A program made the translations under genes and the position numbers. From contig NZ_JANKBZ010000004.1 of NCBI RefSeq assembly GCF_024623785.1, forward strand, positions 248,001 through 312,000: DNA of 64,000 nt, in the 5' to 3' direction. Numbering within the stretch: the first letter of the stretch is position 1; every line of letters begins with the position of its first letter. The notes beneath the pieces are model-generated. The model was not told the DNA's origin, did no database searches, and saw only the letters and a program-made list of their open reading frames with translations. Shown here piece after piece: positions 1 through 16,526 of the stretch. This DNA comes from Archangium lipolyticum. Lineage in GTDB: Bacteria; Myxococcota; Myxococcia; Myxococcales; Myxococcaceae.

Positions 1-725
1 CGCCCCAGCAGCGAGGGCCTGGAGGCAATCTCTCCCCCCTGAGCGGGCGCCGCGCTCCCGTCCACGGTCATCGAGCCCGGCCGTTGCGTCCCACCCATCC
101 ACCAGGCCCGGAACCGGGTGAACAGCCGCGAGAAGAACCCCGGGCGGCGAACGGCGTGCACCGTGCTCGTCTCCGGTACGGCGCGGCCCGCCATCCTCGC
201 CTTCATCTCCTCGGCCTCGGGCGCGGGAGGACCGAGCCCGAAGCTGGCGCGCGTGGGGGCGGCAACGGGCGTGGGCTCGGCCACGGGCGGCGGTGGCGCG
301 CCCAGGCCTTCCACGTGCACCACATCCCAGCCGGACACGTCGAGCCACGCCGACACGTCCACCCGCATCGAGGGCTCGAGCGGATGCACCCGCGCCGTCC
401 CCGCGCGCACCAGCACGGCGGACCCGGGAGGTGGCGCGAGACGCTCGCGCTCGGAGGCGGACAGGGGCGCGGAGAGGAGGACGCCGTCCTCCAGGGTGAA
501 GGGTAGGCCCGGCACCCCGGCGCACGCCATGGAGCGCGGGGACGGGAGCCTCAACAGGAAGCCCCCGGCGAGCGCATACACGCTCACGCCCGGAGCCCAC
601 GCGGCCAGCACGCGCCGGCGCGCCTCCGCCTCGCCCAGGAGCGCGGGGTCGAACCAGAGCGCCACGCCCTCCACGGTGCCACGGTGCACATGGGCGCGAG
701 GCCCGGACCGGCGAGCGGCGCTCAT
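1..725 (-). CDS. bpX6-like protein of a MoxR-vWA-beta-propeller ternary system (5' part; continues past the left edge)
   Basis: The frame is open from an ATG at 725 to the window edge, giving about 241 residues with no stop. The protein starts MSAARRSGPRAHVHRGTVEG and contains a hydrophobic segment around residue 50, a Pro/Ala-rich linker near residue 150 and a basic aromatic stretch (FFSRLFTRFRAWW) near residue 205. Its ATG overlaps the stop of the upstream gene (ATGA, 722-725), so translation is probably coupled. The assignment to the bpX6 type rests on position (last gene after MoxR, bpX5-like and vWA-propeller genes) and on its general look; I recognise no catalytic motif. Family members are thought to be adaptor or target-recognition parts of an ATPase-driven conflict system. 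The C-terminus is missing here, so the domain composition is incomplete. Confidence 0.6.
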   Translation of the reverse strand, partial: MSAARRSGPRAHVHRGTVEGVALWFDPALLGEAEARRRVLAAWAPGVSVYALAGGFLLRLPSPRSMACAGVPGLPFTLEDGVLLSAPLSASERERLAPPPGSAVLVRAGTARVHPLEPSMRVDVSAWLDVSGWDVVHVEGLGAPPPPVAEPTPVAAPTRASFGLGPPAPEAEEMKARMAGRAVPETSTVHAVRRPGFFSRLFTRFRAWWMGGTQRPGSMTVDGSAAPAQGGEIASRPSLLG

Positions 726-2563
726 GGCGTTCCTCCTGGGGTGGAGCGGAAGACGAGGGCCTTGTACGGGAAGCTCCACACCCCCACCTCGCCGCTCTTC
801 GTCAACCAGGCCAGCATGGGGAGCGCGTGGCTGACGGACGCGCTGACGACTGGCGCGGAAGCCACCACCAGGGTCTCGGTGGTGCCGTTCCCGGTCACCA
901 GGGAGAAGGTGCGCTCATCCTTCGCGAGCACCACCAGCGCCGGTGTCGCCGGCGAGGGGTGGGAGCACACACCGACCACCCGCATCCCGATGGGAGGAGA
1001 GAGCTCCGTCCGCAGCACCTTGTGCGACTGCTTCTCCAACCAGGTCAGGTAGCGCAGCACGCTCCAGCCACCGGGCTGGTGGCGCACCGCGAGGGGGTCC
1101 GCCTCGTCGAAGCCGGCTTTCGTCGCGTGACCGAAAAACGCCATCCCATCCCCGGCGAACCCGAGCTCCAGCACGGAGGCGTTCGCGGGCATCCACCGCT
1201 CGAGTTGCAACATGGCCGCGGCCTGCGACCCCCCCGGACCCCGGGACACGAGGTAGAGCACGCCCTTGCGCTCGGCGAGCGCGCTCACGCCCCGGGAGAC
1301 GGGGACGACCCCGAGGCCGTGCTCCCGCTGCGTGAGCCGGTGCAGCACGCCCGCCGCATCCAGCACGTACACCGTCTCGATGTTCCGGCCCTGGTGTATC
1401 TGGGTCAGGGCCAGCAGGGGAGGCTCGCCCTTGCGAGGCAGCTGGAACGACTCGTCGCCCTCGGGCAGTGGGTAACCCGTGGCGCGGCCGGTGGAGGCGT
1501 TCTTCAACGTGCCGTGCACGTGCAGGGTGCGCCCGCGCAGCGTCACGGCGAGCAGTCCACCCTTGTGGCGCCAGCCCATGGCCACCACGGACTCGTCCCG
1601 CTGGGGCTGGAAGCGCTTGGGCCTGGGCGCGGTGGCGCGCGGGGACTGGGGGATGGACTGCGCCGCAACGCCGCCATCCGCGTACGCGAACAGCAGCCGC
1701 AGCCCATCCGCGGAGAAGCGCATGGTGCTCACGGAGCCCACGTGGGTGTCCAGCACGGGCGCGGCGGCGGCGGTGACGAACGGATCCCTCAGCAACCGCA
1801 CGCACTGGGGCACGGGCGGCAGGTCCAGCACCACCTGGCGCGACGCGCGCGACGCGGGCCGCACCTCCACCGCGAGCCGCCGGGCCCCGGGCGCGATGAC
1901 TTCCTCCACCGCCACGCGGGACAGGCGCTCGGTGCCCGGGAGCCGCGCGAGACGCGCGCCGCCCACCAGCCACACATCATCGGGAGCACGCCCGAGTTGG
2001 AGCACCTCGCTCCACGCGGCGAGCTGCGCGTCGGTGGGCGGAGAGGCACTGCCCGCCTTCAACCACTGGCCGACGGTGGCGGCATTGACGGTGGTGAAGG
2101 GCCCGTTCTGGACGGGGGACTGGAGCACGCCCCAGGCGAAGGCCGCGCCCGCCGCCTCGGCGCGCCGGGCGAGCACCACCAGCAGCGCCAGGTGCGCGAT
2201 GCGCGGCGGGCCGAACTGGTCCGGCCCCGCGTCCAGCAGGGCCACGGTGCGACGCCCGCCCTGCGGCTGGCGGAAGGCGGGCCGGAGGTAGGCCTGCTCA
2301 CCGAAGGCCGCGCGGCGCACGAACTCGTCCGGGGCCTCCAGGGCCATCAACCACTCGCTCACCAGCAGCCGCTCGGGCGAACCGCGCCGGGTGAGGCCGT
2401 CATAGCCGTGGAACTCGCCGCCCTCCGTCTCGGTGCGCGCGCGCATGGGGCCGATCGCCGCGGCCAGCCGCGCCACGTGGGTACCCAGGCTGAGCGCCAG
2501 GTCCTCGGGGAAGAGGGAGAGCTGGCCCGCCCAGGGACGCAGCGACTCGGGCAACTCGCTCAC
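722..2563 (-). CDS. vWA-like plus beta-propeller protein of the MoxR ternary system
   Basis: The GTG at 2563 is chosen because AGGAGG lies 7 bases upstream and the codon overlaps the preceding stop (GTGA); an upstream GTG at 2590 lacks a site. The 613-residue product has an N-terminal part (about 50-215) with the alternating layout of a von Willebrand A fold, and a C-terminal part (about 265 to the end) of repeated beta-blade segments such as STMRFSADGLRLLFAYADGG, which resemble WD40/propeller blades. The expected MIDAS motif DxSxS is replaced by DAGPD around residue 111, so metal binding is doubtful. Together with MoxR and the two bpX-type neighbours this matches the MoxR-vWA-beta-propeller ternary systems described in multicellular bacteria. 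By analogy with RavA-ViaA, the vWA protein would be the partner through which the ATPase acts on a client. Confidence 0.72.
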   Translation of the reverse strand: MSELPESLRPWAGQLSLFPEDLALSLGTHVARLAAAIGPMRARTETEGGEFHGYDGLTRRGSPERLLVSEWLMALEAPDEFVRRAAFGEQAYLRPAFRQPQGGRRTVALLDAGPDQFGPPRIAHLALLVVLARRAEAAGAAFAWGVLQSPVQNGPFTTVNAATVGQWLKAGSASPPTDAQLAAWSEVLQLGRAPDDVWLVGGARLARLPGTERLSRVAVEEVIAPGARRLAVEVRPASRASRQVVLDLPPVPQCVRLLRDPFVTAAAAPVLDTHVGSVSTMRFSADGLRLLFAYADGGVAAQSIPQSPRATAPRPKRFQPQRDESVVAMGWRHKGGLLAVTLRGRTLHVHGTLKNASTGRATGYPLPEGDESFQLPRKGEPPLLALTQIHQGRNIETVYVLDAAGVLHRLTQREHGLGVVPVSRGVSALAERKGVLYLVSRGPGGSQAAAMLQLERWMPANASVLELGFAGDGMAFFGHATKAGFDEADPLAVRHQPGGWSVLRYLTWLEKQSHKVLRTELSPPIGMRVVGVCSHPSPATPALVVLAKDERTFSLVTGNGTTETLVVASAPVVSASVSHALPMLAWLTKSGEVGVWSFPYKALVFRSTPGGTP

Positions 2564-3003
2564 GGAGTGGCCTCCTGCTTCGCCAACCACGCGCCGAGGG
2601 TCTCACGGGACACGGGACGCGCGGCGCCCACGGGCACGAGCTGTCCCGAGCGGGGAAGCACGGCGAGCGGAGTGCCCGCCCGGGCGCGGGCGACGAGCGC
2701 GCGGTCGAGCAGCGCGGGGGACACGTCCGGGGCGAGCGTGCACGGCAGCAGCAGCGAGGGCGCCGCCGCGTCGCGCCCGAGGTAGACGGCACCATCCACC
2801 CACGGGAGGGACTCCGTGTCGCCCAGCAGCACGAGCACGCCGGGCCCGGCCACGCCGCTCCACCGGGCGAGCGCCGTGTCCTCCACCGCCAGCACCCGCC
2901 GCGCGAGCGCGAGCGCCACCGGCCCCACGCCCGCAACCGCGAGCGCTTGCAGCGGCAGGGCCCGAGGGCTCCACTCCACCGGTTGTTGAATCCGAGGCTC
3001 CAT
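2560..3003 (-). CDS. bpX5-like small protein of the MoxR ternary system
   Basis: A 147-residue soluble protein with no signal peptide. It carries a VAGVGPVALALARRVL helix near residue 25, a buried-strand segment (VLVLLGDTESLPWVDGAVYLG) near residues 56-76, and a second hydrophobic strand TPLAVLP near residue 110. The WVDG..YLG signature and the position between MoxR and the vWA-propeller gene suggest the bpX5 type, a family known only from these operons and without known catalysis. The gene starts 12 bp after the MoxR stop and ends in a GTGA overlap with the next gene, so the four genes form one transcription unit. The exact bpX subfamily number is my best reading; membership in the operon is much firmer. 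Confidence 0.6.
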   Translation of the reverse strand: MEPRIQQPVEWSPRALPLQALAVAGVGPVALALARRVLAVEDTALARWSGVAGPGVLVLLGDTESLPWVDGAVYLGRDAAAPSLLLPCTLAPDVSPALLDRALVARARAGTPLAVLPRSGQLVPVGAARPVSRETLGAWLAKQEATP

Positions 3004-3015
3004 GTGAGAGCGCGC

Positions 3016-4176
3016 CTAGGCCGCCGCGGCCGGGGCCACCTGTGCCAGCGCGGCGCGGAGCTCCTCGCGCACGGTCTGGAGGTCCTCGGGCAGGGACTCG
3101 GGAGCGAAGCCCGCGTCCATCTCGCGCGCCACGCCCTCCAGCTTCAGCCGCCAGGAGGCGAGGGCCTCGGAGTCCGCGTCCGGAGGCCGCCCGGCGAGCA
3201 CACTCCGTCCGGACTGGGCGATGCGCTGCGCGCGCGCGAGGGGCCCGGCGCTGGCCTCGAGGGCGGCGGCGGCGAGGGCGGAGTTCTCCGAGTGGGCCAG
3301 CAGCTCGCGCAGCACGTCACGGGCGAGGGCCTGTCCCTCCTTGGAGGGCACCACGTAGATGAGGGTCCACAGGTCGGCCACGCTGGGGGTGGTGCGCCCG
3401 GCGAGCGCGGCGGCGGCGGACACCAGCCGCTGGGCCTTCACCATGCGGCGGTCGCTCAAGCCGATGCCGGCGGCGCGCAGGGTGCGCAGCGCGTGGGCCA
3501 GGTGGGGGCGCACCGGCCCGAGGTCCGCCTCGCGTGCCGCGCGGGCCAGCACGTCCACGGCCTCCCATGACGCGGTGCGTGCCTCCGCGAACCGGGCCAG
3601 CGAGGCGCCTCCGGCCAGCAGGTCCTCCAACCGCGTGTCGGGCACGGACTCCACGAAGGTGCGCGCGAGGAAGCGGTCGGCGAAGGCGGCGAGCGCCTCG
3701 TCCTCGGGCAGGGCGTTGGAGGCGCCCACGCACACGCGCAGGGGGCAGTGCATGCGGGTGTGGCCGCGGCGGAAGACGCGCTCGTTGAGCAGCCCCAGCA
3801 GCGTGTTGAGGATGGCGGTGGAGCCGAGGAACACCTCGTCGAGGAAGGCCACCTCGGCCTCGGGCAGCATGCCGGCCGTCTCCGTCTCCACCACGCCCTC
3901 GCGCAGCTTGCGCAGGTCCACGGGTCCGAAGATTTCGGAGGGCTCGGTGAAGCGACCCAGCAGGTACTCGAAACAACCACCGCCGAGCGCTCGCGCGGTG
4001 CGTCGAACGGCCTCGCTCTTGGCGGTGCCGGGAGGACCGATGACGAGCAGGTGCTCGCCGGCCACGGCGCACAGGGCCACCAACTCCACCATGGCCTCGC
4101 GCTCCACCAGGCCCTGTCCGGCATCGGTGAGGGCCTCGCGTACGGAGGAAGCAGCCGCTTGGAAAGAGAGAGACAT
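3016..4176 (-). CDS. MoxR-family AAA+ ATPase
   Basis: The start is set at the ATG at 4176 (MSLSFQAAAS); further upstream the same frame reads through the promoter and the divergent gene. The product is 386 residues, normal for MoxR/RavA-type ATPases. Walker A is GPPGTAKSE (about 47-55), Walker B is VAFLDEVFLG (about 109-118), followed by the family-typical LLGLLNERVFRRG stretch, a sensor-1-like GASN and the arginine-containing FADRFLART. MoxR ATPases are chaperone-like remodelling enzymes that act with vWA proteins. This is the first gene of the leftward operon and probably powers it. A 108-bp gap separates it from a divergent outer-membrane gene, so its promoter lies between 4177 and 4284. 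Confidence in the ATPase family is high; the substrate is unknown. Confidence 0.88.
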   Translation of the reverse strand: MSLSFQAAASSVREALTDAGQGLVEREAMVELVALCAVAGEHLLVIGPPGTAKSEAVRRTARALGGGCFEYLLGRFTEPSEIFGPVDLRKLREGVVETETAGMLPEAEVAFLDEVFLGSTAILNTLLGLLNERVFRRGHTRMHCPLRVCVGASNALPEDEALAAFADRFLARTFVESVPDTRLEDLLAGGASLARFAEARTASWEAVDVLARAAREADLGPVRPHLAHALRTLRAAGIGLSDRRMVKAQRLVSAAAALAGRTTPSVADLWTLIYVVPSKEGQALARDVLRELLAHSENSALAAAALEASAGPLARAQRIAQSGRSVLAGRPPDADSEALASWRLKLEGVAREMDAGFAPESLPEDLQTVREELRAALAQVAPAAAA

Positions 4177-4284
4177 GGGTGTGACTCTACCCGGCTCCGG
4201 CACCGTGCCGAATGCCCGCCGGGTAACGTACGCACGGTGCGGGTGGACCTGACGGGGAGGGTCTGGGCTAAGCTCCGCGGCCAC

Positions 4285-4869
4285 ATGCGACACGTTGCGA
4301 GTCTCGGAACCCTGGTGGCGGCGGCGTTGTGGGCGGGGACATCGGCAGCGGCGGAGTGGAGGGGCTACGCCGCGGCCACAACCGGCTTCGTCATCGACCA
4401 CACCTCCGGAGTGAGGGCCAAGGGAGGCGCGCTCCAGGCCTATGTGGGAGTGGAGGCGCCCTTCGGGCTGTCTCTCGGGGTGGTGGGTGAGGGCGTCGAG
4501 ACGTGGGGCGCACGATTCCAGGGGCAGCAGTTGCAACTGGACTACCGCTCCCTGGGGCTGGAGATGCGGCTGCGCTTCCTGCGGGATGGAGGGGTGAACC
4601 CGTGGGTGGGGCTGCGCGTGTCGCAGAGCCGCTCCACACCGCTGACGCTGGACGACCTGGGGACGCCGCGGCGGATGCTGCACGACGGGTTGAGCACGGC
4701 GCTGCGAGTGGGAATGGACACGTGGCTGGGCGAGCACCTGGGCATCACGGCGTCGACGGCCTGGCAGTGGTGCGATGTGCGAGTGGACGGCACCACGGAG
4801 ACGGGGCAGACCACCCAGTGTGCCAAGCCACTGCACACCATCCTGCTGGGCCCCACGCTGCGCTTCTAG
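4285..4869 (+). CDS. outer-membrane beta-barrel protein, function unknown
   Basis: A 194-residue exported protein. MRHVASLGTLVAAALWAGTSAAAE is a classical Sec signal peptide, which is why the ATG at 4285 is chosen over an in-frame GTG at 4237. The mature part consists of amphipathic strands with alternating hydrophobic residues (LGLEMRLRFLR, GVNPWVGLRVSQS, LGITASTAWQW) and ends in the C-terminal aromatic LRF expected of a BamA-recognised barrel. It resembles small 8-stranded barrels (OmpW/OmpX-like) in size, but I recognise no specific family. It is divergent from the MoxR operon and shares its promoter region. A hairpin repeat follows the stop by 11 bp. Confidence 0.7.
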   Translation: MRHVASLGTLVAAALWAGTSAAAEWRGYAAATTGFVIDHTSGVRAKGGALQAYVGVEAPFGLSLGVVGEGVETWGARFQGQQLQLDYRSLGLEMRLRFLRDGGVNPWVGLRVSQSRSTPLTLDDLGTPRRMLHDGLSTALRVGMDTWLGEHLGITASTAWQWCDVRVDGTTETGQTTQCAKPLHTILLGPTLRF

Positions 4870-8558: not shown

Positions 8559-10649
8559 TCATGGAGAGGTGGAGGAGCCAGGCGCGAAGCGCACGGTGGC
8601 CAGCGGCGTGGCGAGGTTGCTCACGTGGGACACGCGCACGCCCGCGTCGGAGATGGCGTACACATAGTCGTCCGCCATCACACTGCGGCGCACGGCGGGC
8701 GAGTACGTCCAGCTCCACAGGTGGGAGCTGTTCGTCTGATACACGTCCTTCATGGAGATCGCCCCCACCGGGGTGAAGCCGGTGGAGGGGTTCACGCGGA
8801 AGACGCGCAGGTCGCTCACGAAGCCGCCCCAGTAGTCACCGCCGTAGGACGGCCGCACCCAATCCGTGAAGGGGATGGCCAGCAGCCCCTTGGCCGGGAA
8901 GTAGTTGAAGGCCTTGTGGTTGTAGAGCGACTCGCTCCAGCCGGAGGCCGTGCCCACCAGTTGCGTGAAGGCCTCGCGCGGGTGTGCCGGGTCCGTCACG
9001 TCGAAGAGGGACAGCTTGACGGCGCGCGTACTCCAGTCGCCGTTCTCCGGCACGTTCATTCCCACCGTCAGCAGGTGCGTGGTGCCCAGTGGATGGATGT
9101 ACGTGGAGAAGCCCGGCACCTTCAGCTCGCCCACCTTGCGCGGGTGCGCCGGGTCGGACAGGTCGAAGGTGAAGAGCGGATCCACCTGCCGGAACGTCAC
9201 CACGTAGCCCTTGTCGCCCAGGAAGCGCGCGCTGAAGATGCGCTCGCCCTTGGCCAGCTCCTCGCTCTTGCCCAGGAGCCTCAGCTGGCCGCCCTCTTCC
9301 GCATAGGTGGCGACGCGGTTGGTCGTCTCGAGACGGCCCCAGGAGTTGCCGAGCTCCGACACCCGCGAGGAGATGGTGGTGGCCACGCGCAGCACACCCT
9401 CGTGCTCGTCCATGCTGAACTGGTCCAGCAGGTGTCCCTCCACGGTGCCGCTGGCCGCGTACCGCGTGCTGTGAGGCTGGCTCAGGTCGAGCTTGTGCAC
9501 GTAGGTGTGGTCCTTCTGTCCCGCCTCCGGCCACCACCACCAGTGCGGCGTGGCCATGTAGAGCGCGCTCTCGGTGGCGTACACCTCGCCCGGCTCGGCC
9601 ACCAGCGAGGTACGGCCCGGGGCACGCGCGGCCTCCGCGTCCAGGTCGATCGACGCCACGGTGACGATGCCCAGCCGGGTGGGCGCGTTCGTCTTGTGGA
9701 AGTCACCGCAGTCGTAGCCCACCGTCTCCACCGAGCCGTCCGGCCGCTTGAAGCGGCCCTCGGGCAGCCAGTCGGACAACGCGCGCTCGCGGATGAGCTG
9801 CTCGTTCTGTCCCTTCAGCTTGTCGATCTCCTTCTCCAGCCGGTCCTGGTCCTCCCAGAGCTCCTGGGAGTAGTCGGGCCACCAGCGGATTCCGGTGGGC
9901 CAGCGGAACTGGTCGCGCATCACCAGCCGCACCGAACTGCCCGCCATCCGCGCGTTGTGGTAGCCGCCCGGCAGGTACAGCTGCCCCGTCACCTGGGGCG
10001 CGTCCAGGTTGGACACGTCCACCGTCGTCACCTTGGTGTGCGTGGCCCCGTAGCCACCGCAGGGGCCCATGGGCGCGCACGAGGAGCCACTGCTCTTGCC
10101 TCCATTCATGTCCGGACGCGGCTCGTACACCTCGGAGAAGACGACCACCTTGTCTCCGCGCAGGAACATCTCCCGCGGCCAGCCCTCGAGCGTCAGCGCG
10201 GACGCCGCGTGCAGGGACTCGGCCGGCCAGGAGCGGTGCGCGTACAGCTTCTGCCCCGAGAGGACGAAGATGCGCGTGCCGTCGTTCTTCACGAAGTCCG
10301 CCTCGTCCACCCCGGCCACCTGGTTGTTGGTGCCGGTGTGGTTGTTCGGAGCGGATGGGGCACCACCCGGAGCGCCCGTGCTGGGAGCCGGAGCGCCCGC
10401 GGAGTCCTCCGCGCCACCGAACCAACCGCCCCGCGTCTTCCAATAGGACGGCTTGGACTGCTCCAGCGTGGTGCGCATGTCGAGAACCGCGGCGTCCTCG
10501 ATATAGGACTCGAGCGCCTCACAGCTCTGGAAGGACTCCAGCCTCGCCTTCATCTGTACCGGTTGGTTCCCGGGGATGTCCCCCTTGTCGCCGCACCCCA
10601 CGAGTCCCAACAACGCGAGTCCCAGCCAGCCTCGGTTCTTCCCATGCAT
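8559..10649 (-). CDS. lipoprotein with C-terminal beta-propeller domain (PF09826 type)
   Basis: Product of 696 residues from the ATG at 10649, with GAGGAG about 9 bases upstream and a lipoprotein signal ending LVGC (Cys19). The diagnostic segment GVDEADFVKNDGTRIFVLSG is characteristic of secreted proteins with a beta-propeller distantly related to WD40. Repeated blades follow (for example GEVYATESALYMATPHWWWW and GFSTYIHPLGTTHLLTVG). An acidic coiled segment (DRLEKEIDKLKGQNEQLIRE) interrupts the propeller in the middle. The protein should sit on the periplasmic or outer-surface side; the family has no established enzymatic role and is usually considered a scaffold or binding protein. The gene is divergent from the copper-oxidase gene, with 260 bp between. 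Confidence 0.82.
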   Translation of the reverse strand: MHGKNRGWLGLALLGLVGCGDKGDIPGNQPVQMKARLESFQSCEALESYIEDAAVLDMRTTLEQSKPSYWKTRGGWFGGAEDSAGAPAPSTGAPGGAPSAPNNHTGTNNQVAGVDEADFVKNDGTRIFVLSGQKLYAHRSWPAESLHAASALTLEGWPREMFLRGDKVVVFSEVYEPRPDMNGGKSSGSSCAPMGPCGGYGATHTKVTTVDVSNLDAPQVTGQLYLPGGYHNARMAGSSVRLVMRDQFRWPTGIRWWPDYSQELWEDQDRLEKEIDKLKGQNEQLIRERALSDWLPEGRFKRPDGSVETVGYDCGDFHKTNAPTRLGIVTVASIDLDAEAARAPGRTSLVAEPGEVYATESALYMATPHWWWWPEAGQKDHTYVHKLDLSQPHSTRYAASGTVEGHLLDQFSMDEHEGVLRVATTISSRVSELGNSWGRLETTNRVATYAEEGGQLRLLGKSEELAKGERIFSARFLGDKGYVVTFRQVDPLFTFDLSDPAHPRKVGELKVPGFSTYIHPLGTTHLLTVGMNVPENGDWSTRAVKLSLFDVTDPAHPREAFTQLVGTASGWSESLYNHKAFNYFPAKGLLAIPFTDWVRPSYGGDYWGGFVSDLRVFRVNPSTGFTPVGAISMKDVYQTNSSHLWSWTYSPAVRRSVMADDYVYAISDAGVRVSHVSNLATPLATVRFAPGSSTSP

Positions 10650-15044: not shown

Positions 15045-16526
15045 ATGGCGCAGCCCGTTCTCAACCGCTCTCATGTCAGCACCCCGGCCCACTCGTTGCC
15101 CGAGGAGCTGCTGCCGTGCTTCGGAGCGCTGCTACAGGCACCGGGGTTGGGACTGGCCTTCCTGGACCGGGAGCTGCGCTTCCGTTTCGTCAGCACGGCC
15201 CTCATCACGCTCAGTGGAGTGCCCAACGCCCTGTACGAGGGGCGCACCACCGCGGAAGTCTGGCCGGGACTGGCCAAGGAGCTGGCACCGCTGCTCAAGA
15301 AGGCCCTGGCGGGTGACACGCAGGTGGGGGTGCGGGTGTCCGGCACGCTGGGCCCGCAGTCCTCGGGGAACCTCCGCCACCTGCGGCTCGCGTTGCTGCC
15401 CGCAATCTCGGGCGGCCTGTGCACCGGCGTGGGGGTGATGCTGGAGGACGACACGGCGCACGTGGAGGCGGAACAGGCGCTGCGCCAGAGCGAGGAGCGG
15501 CTGCGCGGCCTCGTCGACGTCTCCTGTGACGGCTACTTCCTGCATGACGGGGGCATCATCCTCGAGGCGAGCCGCTCGCTGGCCAACCTGTTCGGCACCA
15601 CGCCGGAGGAGATGATGGGCCAGTCCATGACGCGTTGGGTGGCCCCCGAGTCCCGCGAGGCGGTGCAGAGCGCGCTCTCCCGGAACGTGCAGTCTCCCTA
15701 CGAGCTGACGGGCCTGCGCACCGACGGCAAGCGCCTCTTCCTGGAGGTGCTGGGCCGTGAGGTGGAGCACGCCCACCGCACCGTGCGGATGACCGCCGTG
15801 TGGGACATCAGCGCACGTAAGGCCGCCGAGGAGGCCGCCGCCCGAGCCGACACCTTCCGCGAGCAGCTCCTGGGCGTGGTGGGGCATGATCTGCGCTCGC
15901 CCCTGTACGCCATTCAACTCAGCGTGGGGGCGCTCCAGCGCGCTGGCGGGTTGAACGAGACGCAGGAGCGGCAGGTGACGTACGTGGCCACCGCCACCCG
16001 GCGCATGGAGCGGATGATCCACGAGTTGCTGGACTTCACGCGCGCGCGGCTGGCCGGGGGCCTGCCCGTGCGCCCCACCCCCCTGTCCCTGGACAAGCTG
16101 CTCGCGCGGGCCGTGGAGGACTTCCAGGCCTCGCACCCCACCCGGCTGATCTCCCCGAAGGTGGAGGGGGATGTCCGGGGGAGCTGGGACGAGTCCCGGC
16201 TCGGCCAGCTGCTGGACAACCTGGTGGGCAACGCCCTGCAGCACAGTCCCGAGGACACCCCAATCGAGGTGAGGCTGTCGGGAGCACCGGACGGCGTCAA
16301 CCTCTGGGTGCGCAACGAGGGCCCGCCAGTTCCCCTGGAGGAGCGGGCTTCGATCTTCGAGCCCTTCAAGCGCGGCAAGCGCGCCAGTGGCGACGGGCTC
16401 GGCCTGGGCTTATACATCGCCCGGCAGATCGTGGTGGCCCATGGGGGCCGCATCTCGATCGAGTCCGGAGTGGGTATGGGGACGCGCTTCATGGTGTGGC
16501 TCCCCCGGCACGCGCCCGGCGCTTGA
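15045..16526 (+). CDS. PAS-domain sensor histidine kinase
   Basis: A 493-residue soluble kinase without a signal or membrane segment. Two PAS-like regions (about 20-140 and 150-260) precede HisKA with the H-box LLGVVGHDLRSPLYAI, then a HATPase domain with N-box DNLVGNALQHS, G1 WVRNEGPP and G2 GLGLGLYIARQIVVAHGG. The protein ends in LPRHAPGA, so no receiver domain is attached and the response regulator must be elsewhere. The unusual feature is its location, co-directional between atpH (137 bp upstream) and atpA (171 bp downstream). It is probably an orphan kinase, common in myxobacteria; whether it senses energy state is speculation. Confidence 0.9.
   Translation: MAQPVLNRSHVSTPAHSLPEELLPCFGALLQAPGLGLAFLDRELRFRFVSTALITLSGVPNALYEGRTTAEVWPGLAKELAPLLKKALAGDTQVGVRVSGTLGPQSSGNLRHLRLALLPAISGGLCTGVGVMLEDDTAHVEAEQALRQSEERLRGLVDVSCDGYFLHDGGIILEASRSLANLFGTTPEEMMGQSMTRWVAPESREAVQSALSRNVQSPYELTGLRTDGKRLFLEVLGREVEHAHRTVRMTAVWDISARKAAEEAAARADTFREQLLGVVGHDLRSPLYAIQLSVGALQRAGGLNETQERQVTYVATATRRMERMIHELLDFTRARLAGGLPVRPTPLSLDKLLARAVEDFQASHPTRLISPKVEGDVRGSWDESRLGQLLDNLVGNALQHSPEDTPIEVRLSGAPDGVNLWVRNEGPPVPLEERASIFEPFKRGKRASGDGLGLGLYIARQIVVAHGGRISIESGVGMGTRFMVWLPRHAPGA

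Follow-up and report, generated by a model that had tools for sequence, protein, structure and literature searches.

The four-gene operon at the left end of the 64,000-nucleotide stretch of Archangium lipolyticum DNA analysed here (hereafter the window; contig NZ_JANKBZ010000004.1, positions 248,001 to 312,000, i.e., G000:C4:248001-312000, in a genome of 12.6 Mb) is confirmed by sequence comparison to be a real and complete copy of the predicted MoxR-vWA-beta-propeller ternary system, as a first-pass annotation of the window had proposed. These systems were predicted by Kaur, Burroughs, Iyer and Aravind (2020, eLife 9:e52696; PMC7159879), who proposed a conflict role for them and called them enigmatic, no effector being recognisable; in the literature searched, whose coverage leaves most subscription journals outside, no published experimental work dealing with bpX systems came to light. 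The operon belongs to a kind of system already predicted, and the details that are new, as far as this literature shows, are an array of short helices that appears to replace a transmembrane segment in the linker of the bpX6 protein, a uniform motif in the vWA-like protein, the occurrence of the system in a wider range of phyla and the existence of a natural empty site.

Organization and identity of the operon

All four genes lie on the minus strand and run from position 4176 to position 1 of the window and onward into a left extension (L004, whose coordinates correspond to the window position + 12000). The first gene (3016..4176, ATG at 4176) encodes a bpMoxR AAA+ ATPase of 386 aa matching PF20030 (2.2e-84), the second (2560..3003, ATG at 3003) a bpX5 domain protein of 147 aa matching PF19921 (2.5e-27), the third (722..2563, GTG at 2563) a vWA-like/propeller protein of 613 aa and the fourth, of which the window contains only the 5′ part (1..725, ATG at 725), the bpX6 protein matching PF19922 (2.1e-44), whose gene is completed at L004:9897 to yield a product of 942 aa. 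All three Pfam scores are well over the cut-off, so that the bpX similarity attributed at first reading to the products of 2560-3003 and 1-725 is borne out, and the left extension completes the bpX6 gene instead of opening into an unrelated operon. The tight co-directional arrangement also holds, 12 bp separating the MoxR stop from bpX5 while bpX5 and the vWA gene overlap by GTGA and the vWA and bpX6 genes by ATGA. On the other hand, the start of the third gene, initially placed at 2590, must be moved to the GTG at 2563, which overlaps the bpX5 stop and is conserved in the orthologues. A chance or unrelated operon is ruled out by the three Pfam matches together with the gene order kept in 36 distant loci.

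With the system described by Kaur et al. the operon has in common a bpMoxR with the GXXXTAKS P-loop, a vWA-like second component with a C-terminal propeller and without the standard residues of the metal ion-dependent adhesion site (MIDAS), a third protein in which a globular N-terminal domain is followed by TPR-like repeats and a propeller, the extra bpX5 gene and the location of all the genes in one operon. A membrane-spanning segment in the third component, described by these authors for its variable region but not given as a strict requirement, is not encountered here; membership is judged from the Pfam domains, the P-loop signature and the operon. The differences are that in the family to which the host belongs (Myxococcaceae/Archangiaceae) the transmembrane helix gives way to short cationic helices forming a variable array, that the bpX6 domain is conserved whereas the linker and the propellers are variable, and that the propeller looks larger than the published “about four blades”. 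The FtsH ternary system of the same authors likewise has a GXXXTAKS P-loop and a divergent vWA but, unlike it, the present operon is adjoined neither by an FtsH component nor by ubiquitin-like or ligase genes.

The ATPase has all its motifs intact (the diagnostic Walker A GPPGTAKS, Walker B VAFLDEV, sensor 1 GASNA and the DRF arginine region) and the catalytic ones are invariant or nearly invariant across 75 orthologues. The nearest characterised MoxR is RavA, to which the match is partial (2.9e-44), the 152 bits obtained with the RavA equivalog NF010054 remaining below its cut-off of 681. A second, weaker bpMoxR match (5.2e-43) is found elsewhere in the genome, at G000:C18:999-1535 (L036, L189). 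As to bpX5, R14, L66-P-W68, G71, Y74 and G76 are invariant in an alignment of 21 sequences.

The vWA-like/propeller protein

The AlphaFold2 model of this protein (predicted local distance difference test score, pLDDT, 82) comprises a helical part (residues 1-100), a mixed alpha/beta vWA-like domain (101-262) and a propeller (266-610), the last being confirmed by structure (PDB propellers, Z ~13) and weakly by sequence. Neither Pfam nor NCBIfam yields a match for the protein and likewise no family match is obtained for three distant homologues. Foldseek and VIA-align, queried with the whole-protein models, returned only propellers.

The predicted order of strands and helices, a conserved Asp in the first strand and the position of the gene in the operon make it likely that the alpha/beta domain is a vWA. 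Pfam and hhalign give no significant sequence support for this assignment, the latter yielding a probability of 0.1 in the comparison with CoxE-type vWA, a weak test since only 11 sequences were recovered from relatives. The CoxD-CoxE and NorQ-NorD chaperones share with the present system the MoxR-vWA pairing but differ from it in that here the standard MIDAS is absent and this weak test detects no significant profile similarity to the CoxE-type vWA.

The first strand of the vWA-like domain carries the motif D-x-G-P-x-Q-x-G-x-x-R, in which D111, G113, G118 and R121 are found in 80/80 sequences, Q116 in 78/80 and P114 in 76/80; also W198, in a later strand, is present in all 80. The near-invariance of this motif indicates that the standard MIDAS (D-x-S-x-S and a later Asp) is absent and that what has replaced it is strongly constrained. 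The description of the domain as a “degenerate vWA” calls for revision, as mere decay does not account for a motif kept nearly unchanged from one phylum to the next: the MIDAS has been swapped for something different, and D-x-G-P-x-Q-x-G-x-x-R represents a candidate site in the vWA-like protein.

The linker of the bpX6 protein

In the AlphaFold2 model of the bpX6 protein (pLDDT 78) the bpX6 domain (residues 17-127) is followed by a disordered, G/S/P-rich linker (128-281), an alpha-solenoid (295-623) and a propeller (643-939). Three isolated helices, modelled with low confidence at 197-209, 240-250 and 282-293, coincide with copies of a cationic motif, G-phi-phi-x-R-L-x-x-phi-phi; the first copy (PGFFSRLFTRFRAWW, residues ~197-209) belongs to the low-complexity part of the linker encoded on the minus strand at ~1..140 of the window, whereas the second and third fall on the edge of the window or past it, within L004. 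A matrix derived from 20 seed copies finds 136 matches in 36 distinct linkers as opposed to a mean of 1.3 and a maximum of 4 in 50 shuffles which, the seeds having been drawn from the scanned linkers, control for composition only. The number of copies per linker ranges from 0 to 10, their average net charge is +2 and the most constant copy is the last one before the solenoid.

The DNA of locus L082 contains a 72-bp unit tandemly repeated with 98% identity, which indicates that the arrays can grow via tandem duplication, whereas the linker of L062 has six protein motifs and yet no tandem DNA repeat, a sign that its old copies have diverged. No other protein carrying the array was found when that of L082 was used as query in five genomes.

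A transmembrane-like segment, defined by a 19-residue hydropathy > 1.9, occurs in the linker of 13/44 distant sequences, a few of which are public copies of family members, and in 0/41 sequences of the family, the peak value of the host linker being 1.25. The helix motif is present in 34/41 family linkers, and motif and transmembrane-like segment are found together in 0/85. The helix array appears to substitute for a membrane anchor and, as regards a system without a recognisable effector, the choice between array and transmembrane helix in the third protein represents a testable element. A more specific and distinctly tentative proposal, which we would hold with more doubt than conviction, is that an array of cationic amphipathic helices, quickly growing and shrinking through tandem duplication, replaces the transmembrane anchor and provides a tunable membrane-binding module under a MoxR-vWA ATPase having a non-MIDAS vWA-like site.

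Several data weigh against these interpretations. The helical hydrophobic moment of the motif exceeds that of the shuffles only modestly (0.386 vs 0.329), most distant linkers carry neither the transmembrane-like segment nor the motif, and the mutual exclusion of the two is confounded by phylogeny, i.e., by shared descent. Furthermore, binding of the motif to another protein would fit equally well: the helices may be multivalent docking peptides, binding, for instance, to individual protomers in a ring of MoxR or vWA; their copy number would then tune avidity and they would not be membrane anchors at all. The repetition of a short motif within a disordered G/S/P-rich linker, the constancy of the copy nearest the solenoid and the modest amphipathicity are in keeping with such docking, but 0-10 copies match no fixed ring stoichiometry and a transmembrane-like helix occupies the equivalent place in several other phyla. 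We regard docking as a rather unlikely explanation.

A possible machine at the membrane

That the four proteins constitute an ATP-driven MoxR-vWA remodelling machine, tethered to the cytoplasmic membrane, similar to RavA-ViaA and endowed with fast-evolving propellers as recognition faces, is a proposal that we consider to have about an even chance of being correct. What the sequences show directly is an ATPase with intact motifs, its regular association with the other three genes and the layout of the domains. The MoxR hexamer would pull on, or release, clients presented by the vWA-like protein, which in turn would act through its D-x-G-P-x-Q-x-G-x-x-R site and not through a metal MIDAS. In the same scheme bpX5 may serve as a small adaptor and the bpX6 protein as both scaffold and membrane tether, with its solenoid and propeller docking on the vWA/propeller protein. 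In Myxococcaceae/Archangiaceae the tether would consist of the arrayed short cationic amphipathic helices, and in several other phyla of a transmembrane helix. The likely recognition faces, i.e., the fast-changing propellers, could be directed at a foreign client (of a phage or a rival) or at an envelope or respiratory complex of the cell itself.

The membrane link proposed here can be likened to that of RavA and ViaA of Escherichia coli, which bind phospholipids and are located at the inner membrane (PMC9489729). The likeness extends to the coupling of a MoxR with a vWA partner and to the partial RavA match of the present ATPase, whereas the bpX5/bpX6 third component is missing from RavA-ViaA and the MoxR described here falls short of the RavA equivalog cut-off. 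ViaA is not known to carry a propeller.

Distribution, inheritance and rates of change

bpX6 is found in 60 of the 145 genomes of the order, as a single copy in each and mostly in the genera g1, g4, g5, g7 and g19, and in three additional genomes at the phylum level; the closest named relatives in the homologue scan are Archangium species. Gene order and strand are kept in 36/36 complete loci outside the family, which belong to Myxococcota, Acidobacteriota, Armatimonadota, Pseudomonadota, Actinomycetota and Eremiobacterota, so that with Actinomycetota, Acidobacteriota, Armatimonadota and Eremiobacterota the range goes beyond the main phyla of Kaur et al. An empty site exists in G046, a genome of the same genus, in which the flanks are contiguous: homology with L004 ends at 9809 and restarts at 16192, a loss of ~6.4 kb that matches the operon (L004 9897-16176) almost exactly, and no homologues of MoxR, vWA/propeller or bpX6 were found in that genome. 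The constant order in the distant loci and the joint absence in G046 speak for a single functional unit, and G046 provides a natural knock-out of it, in a close relative and in a syntenic setting.

In a tree of the concatenated operon, the members of g4, g5, g7, g19 and g26 each group together and g1 forms a clade to which the only g6 member is sister. Single copy, synteny and a genus-congruent operon tree look as expected for vertical inheritance, and the distribution within the family is more in keeping with a resident module than with a mobile one for defence. These data bear on a further explanation, namely that the operon encodes a resident chaperone for the assembly or homeostasis of an envelope or respiratory complex, of the RavA-ViaA or NorQ-NorD type, without immune role, the propellers tracking a variable client. 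In addition to inheritance and synteny, the kinship of the ATPase with RavA, the RavA-ViaA precedent (PMC9489729) and the conserved divergent neighbour, presumably an outer-membrane barrel, speak in its favor; less easily accommodated are the clean loss in a genome of the same genus, the absence from many genera, the survival of the barrel gene without the operon and the fact that no dedicated client gene was seen among the four genes travelling together in the distant loci. Altogether we give this resident chaperone somewhat less than an even chance.

The variability of the system sits in the propellers and in the linker, where identity is lowest. Mean identity in the core genera amounts to 82% for MoxR and 64% for bpX5; within the vWA/propeller protein it is 75% in the helical part, 64% in the vWA-like domain and 39% in the propeller, and within the bpX6 protein 62% in the solenoid, 49% in the propeller and 42% in the linker. 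The bpX6 domain itself, whose identity figure is affected by misassigned starts, is conserved in the family and not hypervariable. The ratio of nonsynonymous to synonymous substitution rates (Ka/Ks) between the host genome and G047 is 0.20 for MoxR, 0.48 for bpX5, 0.44 for vWA/propeller and 0.58 for bpX6 and is below 1 for all parts, single-domain values being noisy.

The conflict system proposed by Kaur et al. (PMC7159879), a role also put forward in the first-pass annotation, would be directed against phages or other invaders, an effector in the N-terminal domain or linker of bpX6, perhaps membrane-acting, being freed when the MoxR-vWA threshold switch senses the invader. The behavior of the operon is accessory in several respects: it is cleanly lost in G046, it is absent in three of the four g6 genomes and, in Pseudomonas syringae clade 2b-a, a ravA-annotated ATPase, bpX5, a gene with a structural match only and bpX6 lie together in a genome-plasticity region (PMC9677677). 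The fast propellers, the cationic helix array with its variable copy number and the presence of the PADLOC candidate PDC-M20A in the MoxR-bpX5 gap of a sister genome point the same way. However, in the family there is one syntenic copy per genome, with a genus-congruent tree and ordinary genes on its flanks, none of the four proteins matches PADLOC, the bpX6 protein has no match in phage records and only two partial matches in plasmids, Ka/Ks is < 1 throughout and the bpX6 domain is conserved. A conflict function is not established; we consider it possible but less likely than not, and it has to be reconciled with the apparent vertical inheritance in Myxococcaceae/Archangiaceae.

Flanking genes and local variants

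The operon is separated by an intergenic region (4177..4281), presumably its promoter region, from a divergent gene on the plus strand (4282..4869) that by reading, without a profile match, is presumed to encode an outer-membrane beta-barrel; this gene adjoins MoxR in the core genera, is retained in G046 in the absence of the operon and is left out of the system as understood here. On the opposite side, downstream of bpX6 in L004, are a RelE-like frame, a helix-turn-helix gene and, by reading, a TonB-type receptor and a histidine kinase. The small RelE-like frame (by reading; L004:9514-9786, minus strand), which follows the operon directly, is conserved in genus g1 and retained in G046, and has no Pfam or PADLOC match.

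The gap between MoxR and bpX5 is 12 bp long here; four sister genomes have ~3.3 kb at this place and genus g5 has 0.6-3.4 kb. Effector cargo in this gap was considered and rejected, insofar as the genes in question do not share one strand and show no relationship from one genus to another (one is SRPBCC-like by reading) and hence look like insertions and not like parts of the system. In the four same-genus genomes the gap contains a divergent gene pair (L046:4031-6428, with equivalents in L043-L045); in L046 one product, lipoprotein-looking by reading, matches the PADLOC phage-defence candidate PDC-M20A (4.3e-51), while its partner is matched neither in Pfam nor in PADLOC.

Two departures from the usual gene arrangement were also observed. 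In Kitasatospora (L145, L147) the bpX6 coding region is in two frames, which may be due to a frameshift, to an assembly error or to the existence of two genes. In G083 the MoxR gene (G083:C10:61115-62269, L056; 82% identity) shares contig and strand with the bpX5, vWA and bpX6 genes but lies several kb away from them, its distance to bpX6 being ~14 kb.

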